In this document: positions 3,842 through 30,939 of the stretch, in pieces
How the letters are laid out: each line of letters opens with the position of its first letter
Numbering within the stretch: position 1 is the stretch's first letter
NCBI GenBank assembly: GCA_938015875.1
Contig: CALLXE010000058.1
Coordinates: 1-64,000 of the forward strand
Source of the DNA: an uncultured Robiginitomaculum sp.
GTDB lineage: Bacteria > Pseudomonadota > Alphaproteobacteria > Caulobacterales > Maricaulaceae
DNA: 64,000 bases
Direction of reading: 5' to 3'
Made by a program: the position numbers and the translations under genes
The notes under the pieces: model-generated
Told to the model about the DNA's origin: nothing
The model's database searches: none
Seen by the model: the letters and a program-made list of their open reading frames with translations, nothing else

Positions 3842-3914
3842 GGGGAGAGCGGGCGTCGGATGCCGGTACGACGCCTGACTTCTCCCCCTCATCCCAAATC
3901 AAGTTTGGGATGAG
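3842..3914. repeat. Double palindrome upstream of pheS
   Basis: Two adjacent hairpins fill most of the gap between the ABC ATPase gene and pheS. The first (3842-3887) pairs GGGGAGA with TCTCCCC and, inside it, GGCGTC (3852-3857) with GACGCC (3870-3875). The second (3888-3914) is a perfect 11-bp stem, CTCATCCCAAA against TTTGGGATGAG, around TCAAG. Its right end plus the next bases, GGGATGAGCGG, is identical to the end of the repeats at 28810-28839 and 28930-28959 (inverted). There is no T-run, so it is unlikely to be a terminator. It is probably an extragenic palindromic repeat, though it would lie in the pheS 5' untranslated RNA. Confidence 0.8.
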
Positions 3915-27016: not shown

Positions 27017-28483
27017 ATGTCTGACCTTACAAAATTGACCCTAGACGCCGCATTGACCGGCATGGCGAACGGCGAGTTTTCCTCTGTGGAAATTACCAAG
27101 GCGCATATCGATGCCATCAAAGACGCCGGCAAGCTGAATGCCTTTATTACGGACACGCATGACTTGGCGCTTGAGCAAGCCGCAGCGTCTGATGCACGGC
27201 GGGCCAAAGGCGAAGCCGGCCTTCTTGAAGGTGCGCCTTTGGGCGTGAAAGATTTGTTCTGCACGACCGGCGTTCGCACCACGGCATGTTCTAAAATCCT
27301 CGGCGATTTCACCCCGACATATGAAAGCTCTGTCACGGCGAATATGAAAGCCGACGGCATGGTCATGCTCGGTAAGCTAAACCTCGATGAATTTGCCATG
27401 GGCAGTTCAAACGAGACCTCGTTTTACGGCCCTGTGATTAATCCGTGGCGCAAGGATGCTGATTTGGTTCCCGGCGGTTCCTCCGGCGGATCAGCCTCTG
27501 CTGTGGCGGCGGATTTATGCCTTGGCGCAACGGCGACCGATACCGGCGGGTCCATCCGCCAACCGGCGGCTTTTACCGGCACAGTCGGAATTAAGCCGAC
27601 TTACGGACGGTGTTCGCGGTGGGGCACCGTGGCGTTTGCGTCTTCGCTGGACCAAGCCGGCCCGATTGCCAAGACGGTCAAAGACAGCGCGATCTTGCTG
27701 CAATCTATGGCCGGATATGATGCCAAGGATTCCACATCCTTAAATCTGCCTGTCCCTGATTGGGTGTCCGCCTGCGGCGCGTCCATTAAAGGTATGAAGA
27801 TCGGTATTCCCAAGGAATATACGATCGATGGCATGCCAAAAGAGATTGAAGATTTATGGCAGCAAGGCATGAAGTGGCTGGAAGCTGCCGGCGCGGAAAT
27901 CGTGCATATTTCCCTGCCGCATACCAAATACGCATTGCCTGCATACTACGTTGTGGCCCCGGCCGAGGCGTCTTCAAACCTCGCCCGTTATGATGGCATG
28001 CGCTACGGCCTGCGGGTCGAAGGTGAGAATTTGAACGACACTTATGAGCGTACCCGAACTGAGGGCTTTGGTGATGAGGTGCGCCGCCGCATCATGATCG
28101 GGACTTACGTACTATCCTCCGGTTATTACGACGCCTATTATCTGCGCGCGCAAAAGGTCCGCACAAAAATCGCTGACGATTTCAAAGCCGCATGGGAAAA
28201 ATGCGACGCGATACTGACCCCCACATGCCCAAGCGGCCCGTTTCCCGTCGGCCATAAATTTAATGACCCCGTGAAAATGTATTTGAACGACATTTTCACG
28301 GTCACAGCAAATTTGGCCGGTCTTCCCGGAATTTCTGTTCCTGCGGGCCTCGACGCAAACGGCCTCCCGCTCGGCCTGCAAATCATCGGCCGGGCGCTTG
28401 ATGAAGAGACTGTGTTTAAGGCGGCGAGCGCGCTGGAGGATGCGGCCGGGTTTAGTGCCAAGCCATTGAAGTGGTGGGGGTAG
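27017..28483 (+). CDS. gatA: Asp/Glu-tRNA amidotransferase subunit A
   Basis: This 488-residue amidase releases ammonia from glutamine for transamidation of misacylated Glu-tRNA(Gln) or Asp-tRNA(Asn). The catalytic Ser-cisSer-Lys set is visible: Lys78 (GVKDLF), cis-Ser155 in PGGSSGGSA, and nucleophile Ser179 in [10 protein letters not shown]. Length is normal. In this window gatA and gatB are not adjacent: about 960 bases holding two extra genes and three repeats lie between them. Confidence 0.97.
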
Positions 28484-28489
28484 GTTTTT

Positions 28490-28759
28490 GTGGACGATTA
28501 TGATGTCTCTGAATGGTCTGATATCGGCGGGAGTGTATTAGGGGGCTTGTCCGGAATATGCGTCTTTCTGATTACATGGTTTTTAGTCGCATCATCATTC
28601 GGAGCCTTGGGTTTTCTACTTGGATGGTTTCCCGCTTTTTTTGCAGGAGCGTTCTTTGCAATAATTTTGAAGTTTCTGTTTCAGCTTATGATTTGGTTGT
28701 TTTTGGAGGTTTCTCTACTTATTCTGGAGCTACTTAATCCTCATAATTGGCGCAATTAA
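28490..28759 (+). CDS. Small hydrophobic membrane protein in gatA-gatB gap
   Basis: The 89-residue protein has an acidic N-terminus (MDDYDVSEWSD) and two or three long hydrophobic stretches (about 14-34, 36-60 and 62-82) rich in Phe, Leu and Trp. It starts at GTG 28490, three bases after gatA, with GGGGGTAGG upstream. Codon use is AT-richer than in its neighbours, which suggests a recent arrival. No family recognised; it is not part of known GatCAB complexes. Confidence 0.55.
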   Translation: MDDYDVSEWSDIGGSVLGGLSGICVFLITWFLVASSFGALGFLLGWFPAFFAGAFFAIILKFLFQLMIWLFLEVSLLILELLNPHNWRN

Positions 28760-28809
28760 TCATAGTGAGCCTATTAAAAATAAGCCGATACTTTTATGAG
28801 TAAATAACC

Positions 28810-28959
28810 CTGGTTCCCGACTTTCGTCGGGATGAGCGGAAAATAAAGAGAGAGATTGTAGTTTTGACGATTGTCGTTTTGGGAATAAAGTTTGCGAACA
28901 ATGCTTCCTGCGCAAACAAACCCCACCTCCCGCTCATCCCGACGAAAGTCGGGAACCAG
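28810..28959. repeat. 150-bp inverted-repeat unit (MITE-like)
   Basis: Two 30-base arms, 28810-28839 and 28930-28959, are perfect inverted copies of each other around 90 bases without a gene. Each arm is itself a hairpin: TCCCGAC, loop TTTC, GTCGGGA, followed by TGAGCGG. The right arm also serves as the left boundary of the GIY-YIG gene. Arms of this kind resemble the widespread proteobacterial palindromes that are often mistranslated as FPTFVGM. Confidence 0.92.
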
Positions 28960-28973
28960 AGTTTGGAAAAGCG

Positions 28974-29357
28974 ATGATTGACCGCGCGTTTTATGTTTAC
29001 ATTATCACGAACAAACGCAACGGAACGCTGTATATCGGACACACGGATGACCTCGGGATTAGAATGGAAGAGCATATTCAGGGCCGTTACGCCGGGTTTT
29101 CAAAACGGCACGGCCTGAAATATCTGGTCTGGTATGAAGGATTTGAAACACGCGACGCGGCTTTTAAAAAGGAACGGCAGTTAAAAGAATGGCGACGCGA
29201 TTGGAAATTGGAATTGATAGAGCGGGATAACCCTCACTGGATAGATATTTATAAAACGCCGCAATGGCCTTTGCCGGATGAAAATATATATCCGGAAGTT
29301 TGGGCGCGGTGTATGGACTGTAGGATTGACCCAAGTTTTGTTGTTGGTGACAAATAA
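28974..29357 (+). CDS. GIY-YIG domain nuclease
   Basis: The 127-residue protein contains a compact GIY-YIG domain (about 4-85). Its defining residues are visible: FYVYIITN, then GTLYIGHTDDLGIRMEEH with catalytic Tyr and Arg, and the Glu in KKERQLKEWRR. The C-terminal 40 residues are extra and include a CMDC pair. Single-domain proteins of this class (UPF0213-like) are common but have no known role. The start is ATG 28974. The stop TAA lies within the AAATAAC stretch that precedes the downstream repeat, a stretch also found before the first repeat copy. Confidence 0.9.
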   Translation: MIDRAFYVYIITNKRNGTLYIGHTDDLGIRMEEHIQGRYAGFSKRHGLKYLVWYEGFETRDAAFKKERQLKEWRRDWKLELIERDNPHWIDIYKTPQWPLPDENIYPEVWARCMDCRIDPSFVVGDK

Positions 29358-29359
29358 CT

Positions 29360-29389
29360 CTGGGCCCCGATTTTCATCGGGGTGAGCGG
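29360..29389. repeat. Third hairpin repeat copy, with compensatory changes
   Basis: The hairpin stem is CCCCGAT (29365-29371), loop TTTC, ATCGGGG (29376-29382), then TGAGCGG. Compared with the copies at 28810 and 28930, two base pairs differ on both sides (T-A to C-G and C-G to T-A), so the stem is preserved while loop and tail are identical. Confidence 0.9.
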
Positions 29390-29445
29390 AAATAAAAATC
29401 AGGCCTTTTACGAAGGCGAAAAAACGAGAATAAGGTTTTTGCATT

Positions 29446-30939
29446 ATGTTTATAGCACCACGCGTCGCGGACGCTAAAGATTGGATTACTACGGAGACCG
29501 GGGATTGGGAAATTATCCTGGGCCTTGAGGTTCATGCGCAGGTCGCGTCTAATTCCAAATTGTTCTCCGGCGCGGCGACGGAATATGGCGCGGAGCCGAA
29601 CAGTCAAGTGTCCCTCGTTGATGCGGGCATGCCCGGCATGCTGCCTGTGGTGAATGAGTTTTGTCTGGAGCAAGCGGTAAAAACCGGCATTGGCCTGAAC
29701 GCGCAGATTAATCTTTTTTCGCGCTTTGACCGCAAAAACTATTTTTATGTCGATCTGCCCCAAGGTTATCAAATCAGCCAATTTGAGTTTCCGATTGTCG
29801 GCGAAGGCGAAATTGATATTGTCCCGATTGACGCCGATGGCAAAGTCGGCGAGCAAGTGTCTGTCGGTATTGAGCGTCTGCATCTCGAGCAAGACGCCGG
29901 CAAATCTATTCATGATTTATCGCCGGACGAAACTTATGTCGATTTAAACCGCTCCGGCGTTTGCCTGATGGAAATTGTGTCCAAGCCCGATATGCGCTCC
30001 CCTGACGAGGCGTCAGCCTATGTTGAAAAATTGCGCGGCATTGTACGCGCCCTTGGGACGTGTGACGGGGATATGGAAAAGGGTAATTTGCGGGCTGATG
30101 TTAACGTGTCCGTGCGCCGTCCGGGCGGAGAGCTGGGGACGCGCTGCGAGATTAAAAACGTCAACTCTATGCGTTTCATCCGTCAGGCCATCAATTATGA
30201 GGCCCGCCGGCAAATTGAAATTATCGAGAGCGGTAATGAAGTCGACCAAGAGACCCGCCTGTTTGACAGCGTGAAGGGCGAAACCCGCACCATGCGCTCT
30301 AAAGAAGACGCCCATGATTACCGCTATTTCCCGGACCCGGACCTGCTGCCGATTAAATTAGAGCAAAGCTTTGTCGACCGCATCCGGTCCGAAATGCCCG
30401 AAATGCCGGACGCCCGTAAGGCGCGGTTTATGGAGGCCTATGGCTTGTCCGAATATGACGCGCGGCTACTCTCCGGTGATATAGACATGTCAAATTTTTA
30501 CGAGACTTTGGCCAAAGGCCGCGACGCAAAAATTGCCGCGAACTGGATGCTGGGTGATTTCGCCGGCGCGCTGAATAAGGGCGGGATTGAACTTACCGAT
30601 AGTCCCGTTGACGCGGACGCACTGGGCGGTCTGATCGACCGGATTTCTGATGATACGATTTCCGGTAAAATCGCCAAAGGCGTGTTTGAAAAAATGTTTG
30701 AAAGCGGCGACAGCGCGGACACGATTATTGAGCGCGACGGATTAAAGCAGGTCACAGACACCGGCGCGATTGAAAAAATCGTCGATGAAGTGATTGCGGC
30801 AAACAGCGATCAAGCGGCCAAGGTTGCGGACAATCCGCGTCTTATCGGCTTCTTTGTCGGGCAGGTGATGAAAGCCTCCGGCGGTAAAGCCAATCCCAAA
30901 GCGGTCAATGAAATTCTCAAGGCGAAATTGGGGCTTTAA
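29446..30939 (+). CDS. gatB: Asp/Glu-tRNA amidotransferase subunit B
   Basis: GatB, 497 residues, is the kinase and tRNA-binding subunit that activates the misacylated residue. Family features include [13 protein letters not shown] near residue 22, [34 protein letters not shown] and [15 protein letters not shown], then the helical and YqeY-like tail domains (about 300-497). ATG 29446 has a loosely spaced AATAAGG upstream, so a slightly later start is possible. It needs its own promoter, or read-through across the repeats that separate it from gatA. Confidence 0.96.

Follow-up and report, generated by a model that had tools for sequence, protein, structure and literature searches.

A stand-alone GIY-YIG nuclease gene between inverted CGTC-type REP hairpins as a candidate minimal REP-bounded element

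Introduction

CGTC-tagged REPs, as portrayed in the sections cited here of the 2013 study by Di Nocera (PMC3733652), have a stem of 8-9, a loop of 4-5 and a CCA tail, with TGTC and CCTC as tag variants, and form dimers in which the tag-outward (HH) arrangement prevails and the TT arrangement is rare. They are described there as mostly alphaproteobacterial but known from five phyla, and they include Neisseria dRS3 (the Neisseria CGTC-1 REPs) as well as Rickettsia RPE-6/RPE-4. According to the same sections, these REPs “apparently lack a dedicated transposase”, and in 2013 their mobiliser was left open. The system with which the present locus is most readily compared is that of REPs and RAYTs, for which we draw on parts of two papers (PMC3116915, PMC8266576). 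Among the open-access matches listed, no paper linked GIY-YIG nucleases to REPs in its title or abstract opening, and a term search of two REP papers (PMC12306157, PMC6006769) did not return GIY. Here we describe a GIY-YIG nuclease gene framed by inverted REPs in an uncultured Robiginitomaculum sp. and compare it with its homologues, their flanks and the sites that they occupy.

Results

A nuclease gene framed by inverted REPs

The window, by which we mean the whole 64,000-nucleotide stretch analysed (contig CALLXE010000058.1, positions 1 to 64,000), carries at 28930..29389 (+ strand) an element made up of a REP, a GIY-YIG gene and an inverted REP (inverted repeat I2), with the ends and order of short doublets found elsewhere in the same genome. 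The left REP hairpin (28930..28959, - strand; located by repeat search) has its GCTC tag facing outward, a GAAA loop and a CCAG tail facing the gene, and it folds as single-stranded DNA with a z of -3.3. The right REP hairpin (29360..29389, + strand) is an inverted copy, also tag outward, that folds with a z of -2.7. Between them lies the gene for a stand-alone nuclease of 127 aa (28974..29357, + strand), the left REP ending 14 bases before the ATG and the right REP beginning 2 bases past the stop. A preliminary description of this DNA, made from the letters alone, had reported inverted 30-base hairpins at these distances from the gene and no other cargo, and both statements hold, as the pair encloses the GIY-YIG gene only.

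Read with its tag outward, the left REP consists of GCTC, (A)TCCCGAC, GAAA, GTCGGGA and (A)CCAG, and the window copies in general have 7-8 stem pairs. Left and right REPs differ by 5 mismatches over 30 nt, and their extended 34-nt arms are 85% complementary. A third copy lies outside the element (28810..28839, + strand; inverted repeat I1), identical to the left REP across 30 nt and 97% complementary to the second copy over 34 nt. The left neighbour is gatA (27017..28483, + strand), a name that comes from the preliminary description and sequence recognition rather than from a family scan, and the right neighbour is gatB (29446..30939, + strand), which has matches in 27 other genomes and whose name was likewise not taken from a family scan. 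The unit does split gatA from gatB, as the preliminary description states, and the gap additionally holds an 89-aa ORF 3' of gatA (28490..28759, + strand; no Pfam match, given as context only) and the third REP, which had gone unmentioned.

The flanks of the GIY-YIG gene had an inverted-repeat score of 19, and none of the 57 other ORFs of the window that were tested exceeded 13. The hairpin core CCCGACNNNNGTCGGG alone, counted at 2 mismatches, occurs 4 times in the window against 2.7 expected, a number that is not unusual. A promoter and terminator scan gave nothing informative, and an Rfam scan of 28400-29600 returned no match at gathering score and no group I intron. Elsewhere in the window, positions 3888-3914 form a perfect palindrome with an 11-bp stem, CTCATCCC..GGGATGAG, and a tag-like end on each side, which resembles minimal palindromes at unit sites of another genus.

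The window genome is a MAG of 1.83 Mb, 68% complete, in which the 20-base repeat has 33 matches when up to 3 mismatches are allowed, the reversed control pattern having 4. The 16 matches with 0-1 mismatch divide into 12 in six inverted doublets, the 3 of the window and 1 on contig C54. All six doublets are nuclease-less, measure 56-58 bases start to start and have their tags outward; because their ends are those of the gene-bearing unit, the gene occupies the position of the doublets' short spacer. Their copies mostly have a stem of 8, a loop of 4 and a CCA or CCG tail, and two doublets folded as single strands formed long hairpins (z -6.7 and -8.1). By analogy, such short REP doublets may be nuclease-less relatives of the unit, as REPINs are to RAYT loci.

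The nuclease is closest to the Slx1 cluster

GIY-YIG (PF01541) was the sole Pfam family found in the protein, at 59.8 bits against a cut-off of 22.6, and Pfam gave no NUMOD or other recognised specificity domain. Residues Y9, Y20, R30 and E67, which we take to be the catalytic positions, are invariant in a 27-row alignment. A dN/dS analysis yielded dN only (0.22-0.34; dS not estimable). Foldseek placed the AlphaFold2 model (pLDDT 93.6) nearest to the solved fold of UPF0213 protein 1zg2 (E 1.6e-4), with ranks 1-9 taken by UPF0213 and Slx1 or Slx1-Slx4 and with UvrC at rank 10; the Slx1 matches were weak (E 0.015-0.06), and 1zg2 alone fell below 0.001. Sequence comparison agreed with this ranking in placing UPF0213 ahead of UvrC, and the NCBIfam intron-endonuclease model reached 21.6 bits, far under its 56.05 cut-off. 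With its domain over the curated cut-off and the Tyr, Arg and Glu residues kept, the protein is a member of the GIY-YIG superfamily, and by fold it is closest to UPF0213 and Slx1 of the Slx1 cluster. Slx1 processes branched DNA, which would make hairpins or cruciforms plausible substrates of the window nuclease. In the portion of PMC1564403 cited here, a Methylococcus HsdR gene is described with a recent GIY-YIG domain insertion that is absent from an 80% identical homologue; this could be an in-frame unit of the hairpin-framed kind.

REPs flank homologous nuclease genes in many lineages

Homologues were chosen by protein similarity alone, and 7 of the 80 named loci lay too close to a contig end at 200 bp, leaving 73 scorable. 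By record title, the named loci come from alpha-, beta-, gamma- and deltaproteobacteria, with some from Planctomycetes, Omnitrophus, Elusimicrobia, Moranbacteria and others, and many are MAGs. A CGTC-type REP was present within 200 bp, on either side, at 62 of 73 GIY-YIG genes and at 35 of the 737 ORFs that served as controls in these loci (Fisher p 1e-55), and on both sides within this distance at 40 of 73 genes and 6 of 737 controls. Tag-outward pairs framed 31 of the 73 genes (3/737 controls) and tag-inward pairs 9 (3/737 controls), the orientation around the gene thus not being uniform. REP density fell sharply with distance, from 148 in 38.9 kb of flank to 104 in the 1.10 Mb beyond. Spacing was often narrow, with 23-46 bases between the tag-outward REP and the start of the protein match in 33 of 43 cases and 4-13 bases between the stop and the right tag-outward REP in 18 of 37.

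A stricter survey, in which a matched inverted hairpin pair had to reach at least 70% identity, scored 195 GIY-YIG genes (214 hits less 14 near ends and 5 duplicates), a set that includes the named loci and whose core genes take in the rows of the profile's source alignment (A1). Of the 171 core-subfamily genes, 78 had such a pair, compared with none of the 20 divergent GIY-YIG genes, 1 of the 4 GIY-YIG genes scoring 80-100 bits and 4 of the 884 controls. More than half of the core genes (93) had no matched pair by this strict test; the detector passes over loops of more than 6 nt, which leaves the long-loop REPs of one alphaproteobacterial genus uncounted. Less demanding measures kept the same order, with a CGTC-type REP on either side of 114/171 core genes, 2/20 divergent genes and 41/884 controls, and with an inverted-repeat score of at least 15, set with no hairpin condition, at 98/171, 4/20 and 9/849, respectively. 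On these comparisons of sequence, an association between the nuclease and REPs is shown in many lineages, with matching REPs at both ends.

Two loci each hold a pair of closely similar GIY-YIG genes near each other with the same REP (L156:1121 and 1985; L116:9588 and 9994), which suggests local duplication. In Neisseria gonorrhoeae (NZ_CP119140; L226:1609-3182), a GIY-YIG gene is situated within a cluster of 16 dRS3-like REPs.

REP abundance was also compared across 398 genomes of the phylum, 101 of which have a strong nuclease match (best E ≤3.4e-18). Of these 101 genomes, 54 had at least three CGTC-1-like REPs, as did 31 of the remaining 297, giving an odds ratio of 9.9 (p 9e-18) that is per genome and phylogenetically uncorrected and that comes from a REP pattern blind to 5-base and long loops, with counts transcribed by hand and genomes without an entered count of at least three treated as having fewer. 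A generic pattern, TCAYNCC...CCA, also matched a recurring non-palindromic sequence, so the tighter pattern was used for this survey; by this narrow pattern, 47 of the 101 nuclease genomes have fewer than three REPs. Seventeen genomes have at least 10 REPs and no strong nuclease, and a small GIY-YIG gene with a weaker score was found in 6 of them but not in the other 11. Among these 11 genomes, the GIY-YIG matches are confined to frames of 570-714 aa in nine (taken for UvrC by length) and to a weak match in a 250-aa frame in one, with none in the last, and six of the genomes are at least 94% complete; REPs can thus persist without the nuclease. Y1 transposases were considered as the REP mover in these 11 genomes and set aside: matches occur in 9 of the 11 genomes, with 8 above the cut-off and some broken, but in all 11 fetched loci the stretch examined is free of CGTC-type REPs.

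REP type tends to follow nuclease lineage

Among relatives with a cognate REP, the tag is GTC in 83 of 125. The two ends of a unit resemble each other in their inner stems (identity 0.93 vs 0.78 when permuted; n=42), and flank REPs resemble the other REPs of their own locus (0.87 vs 0.67; n=26), a match between REPs that common genome composition may explain in part. On a tree of 125 nucleases, which is weakly resolved and on which kinship inflates change-count tests, loop class requires 16 changes (23.0 when shuffled, with 0 of 500 shuffles reaching so low a value) and the inner stem triplet 56 (73.8 when shuffled). Within the order, GCTC and GTC tags are separated by a single change on the nuclease tree (support 85), against 8.8 when shuffled, the labels covering 26 of 78 genes (14 GCTC, 12 GTC; the other 52 without a readable GCTC or GTC tag). 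In two genomes (G029 and G052), both tag classes are present, next to their respective nuclease lineages. CTTT-tag REPs occur at 6 genes, 4 of them in one clade, and two genomes, G018 and G019, combine them with GTC-tag REPs that adjoin other lineages. Taken together, these sequence patterns show that REP loop and, where readable, tag tend to follow the nuclease lineage. Neighbouring distant REPs in relatives are arranged tag outward in 27 cases, tag inward in 17 and on the same strand in 2, which makes the TT arrangement commoner than the cited sections of PMC3733652 state.

Copies at unrelated sites and at homologous sites

One genome (G114) carries three units at unrelated sites, with 75-87% DNA identity. 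Their homology starts at CTTCGTCAT in all three and stops at ATGACGAAG in two, which are the outer REP edges, and the right REP of the third unit is degraded. G227 has two copies at a distance of 55 kb, whose 743-bp stretch of 91% identity extends past the REPs into a larger repeat. At L293:2715-3453 and L294:2721-3451, the GIY-YIG unit is nested in a larger repeated element with inverted ends of its own, of the TCCCCCACTCCGTC type. G333 was considered as a further case of duplicate units on account of two equal-scoring proteins, but was rejected because their loci do not match at the DNA level.

One of the G114 units occupies a site whose upstream flank is common to 60 of 61 congeneric genomes. 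The 30 loci fetched for the first G114 site comprise 4 with a full-length unit, 2 with a partial gene, 4 with a REP or palindrome only, 11 that are empty (gaps of at most 33 bases), 8 with other sequence and 1 that is truncated; among the 4 full-length units, one has its frame broken near the end and one has its gene inverted between the REPs. In L326 (G468), whose unit is at the L291 site, the nuclease gene lies between the same two REPs as in its congeners but in inverted orientation, through either REP-mediated inversion or independent entry. The second site, followed in 20 genomes, holds a unit with a reading frame in 3, a rearranged unit in 1, a minimal palindrome tagged at both ends in 2 and no unit in 13, with 1 genome lacking the far flank. 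At the third, where the far flank is unusable because the G114 contig ends, 4 of 20 genomes carry the gene, 2 a broken gene and 14 none. The homologous sites inspected contain no target-site duplication or exact pre-insertion site, and empty sites additionally miss some flanking bases. These alignments show discrete copies at unrelated sites that end at the tag, with homologous sites found full, broken, inverted, minimal or absent.

Among 28 genomes with gatB, the unit precedes this gene only in the window genome (G000) and G010, with gatA lying beyond the 1.5 kb examined at 6 loci. In the window's genus, the four relatives in which gatB was found (G001, G002, G004 and G005) have no GIY-YIG unit before it. 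Among relatives, the gatA-gatB interval can be as short as 6 bases or as long as 1.3 kb, which renders the exact empty site of the window unit unreadable. In G005, a GIY-YIG gene is located on the opposite strand just past gatB (L201:3107-3370), so the gat locus has been struck more than once in the window's genus. The preliminary description had proposed a repeat-plus-nuclease unit analogous to RAYT/REP, and this proposal is supported, as neither of the two outcomes that it named as refuting was obtained: homologues show a strong excess of flanking inverted hairpins in both surveys, and the position of the gene varies between relatives.

DUF559 nucleases with similar framing

The gatA-gatB gap of G005, in the window's genus, carries a DUF559 gene (L201:1061-1402; 128.6 bits), which in this one instance occupies the same slot as the GIY-YIG unit and is framed by a different inverted hairpin pair, 97% matched. 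In the loci examined, a motif search found only one other DUF559-like frame (L141:11955-12374; pair 0.81). Twelve further DUF559 loci, drawn from 34 plasmid-collection records, divide evenly between six with a matched inverted pair of at least 0.7 (L391, L392, L394, L396, L398 and L400) and six with none (L389, L390, L393, L395, L397 and L399), scored over a flank window slightly wider than that behind the 4/884 control figure. The DUF559 hairpins are of other classes than those of the GIY-YIG genes, for example of the CCTTCTCCC or CCCTCTCCC type.

Discussion

We consider it probable that the segment is a minimal REP-bounded element, with CGTC-type REP ends whose tags point outward and a sole gene encoding a Slx1-like GIY-YIG nuclease that acts on its own REPs. 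The nuclease would recognise its REP, folded into a hairpin or cruciform while replication or repair leaves the DNA single-stranded, and would cut at or near the base of the hairpin. Host repair or replication could then either copy the REP pair elsewhere, the gene included or left behind, or delete, invert or convert it. Unlike a Y1 transposase, a GIY-YIG enzyme is not known to form a covalent intermediate, and joining would therefore fall to the host. A broader proposal, to which we give somewhat less than even weight, is that stand-alone GIY-YIG nucleases are the dedicated mobilisers of CGTC-type REPs, constituting a transposase-free class of element based on hydrolytic cutting and host repair; as matched inverted hairpins of a different class enclose some DUF559 nuclease genes, the same plan may have evolved at least twice.

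Both the REP-element reading and its most serious, if unlikely, competitor require nuclease action on REPs. In the latter, a free-standing homing endonuclease cuts REP doublets and its gene is copied in by repair through REP homology, REPs themselves being spread by something else. The GIY-YIG fold is one used by homing endonucleases (PMC1564403, in the part cited), the inverted gene of L326 is what a symmetric target would yield, and prior sharing of the REPs alone would likewise give copy homology that ends at REP edges, so that the site comparisons would appear to fit homing and transposition equally well. In a Legionella evolution experiment, the sections cited of PMC12308824 report mutation hotspots, possibly also of recombination, at 11 intergenic regions beside GIY-YIG genes and 3 segments with DUF559, although its authors caution that these may be artefacts. 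Against homing, the spread of the REPs is left unexplained, many homologous sites have neither REP nor gene, and the nearest relatives of the nuclease, which Pfam finds to be free of NUMOD, are UPF0213 and Slx1 of the Slx1 cluster rather than homing endonucleases.

That the gene instead serves the host as a repair enzyme, whether as a UvrC back-up or in an Slx1-like role, with REPs gathering as terminators or through the tolerance of the locus, seems to us very unlikely. Caulobacter COG2827 paralogues, one with an SOS box, have been proposed as repair back-ups (PMC1839093, as far as the part cited goes), but control genes in the same loci show no REP excess, and no matched pair was seen at the divergent GIY-YIG genes. 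In many loci the REPs also keep a nearly constant spacing from the start and the stop, and several paralogous units at unrelated sites share the REP-to-REP segment only. We find it scarcely credible that the nuclease removes REP hairpins, trimming cruciforms as a silencer or as a domesticated control on REPs; its relatives are structure-selective and broken and minimal palindromes do occur at homologous sites, yet REP-rich genomes tend to have the nuclease, where a remover should give the opposite.

On the preferred reading of a REP-bounded element, the nuclease is the best candidate spreader of a common hairpin family without a known mover, and a specific enzyme candidate in tractable bacteria makes the question of the CGTC REP mobiliser directly testable. 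If correct, this reading would supply a function for a widespread family annotated “GIY-YIG nuclease family protein” or “UvrC-like”, and would suggest that hairpin repeats and small nucleases have been paired more than once, with unrelated enzymes.

Comparison with known systems

The window nuclease shares with the stand-alone nucleases of the Slx1 cluster (COG2827; UPF0213, 1zg2 and 1ywl) a single GIY-YIG domain, and these are its nearest PDB relatives; it differs in that the literature on them, in the parts considered, does not mention a REP association, and divergent GIY-YIG genes in our survey lack matched REP pairs. GIY-YIG homing endonucleases have the same catalytic fold, and a comparable selfish behaviour is conceivable, but the window nuclease is without NUMOD, its locus is without an Rfam match and it is bounded by inverted REPs. 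The CGTC-tagged REPs, going by the cited sections of the 2013 paper, are alike in loop, CCA tail and tag-outward dimers, with a stem of 8-9 there against 7-8 in the window genome. They differ in that the window's REP dimer contains a nuclease gene, while those sections report no dedicated transposase, and in that the window clade has a GCTC tag, most of the relatives listed in our own comparison having CGTC or TGTC. With the REP/RAYT system (REPtron) and its REPINs, the unit has in common a single nuclease gene between inverted REP hairpins, accompanying inverted doublets in the genome that lack the nuclease gene (six here) and several lineages each with its own REP class. The enzyme there is an HUH/Y1 transposase and here a GIY-YIG nuclease, so the chemistry must presumably differ, and the tag there is GTAG in place of GCTC (window) or CGTC. 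As the defining enzyme and tag of REP/RAYT are both absent, the window unit would work like this system without being a member of it.
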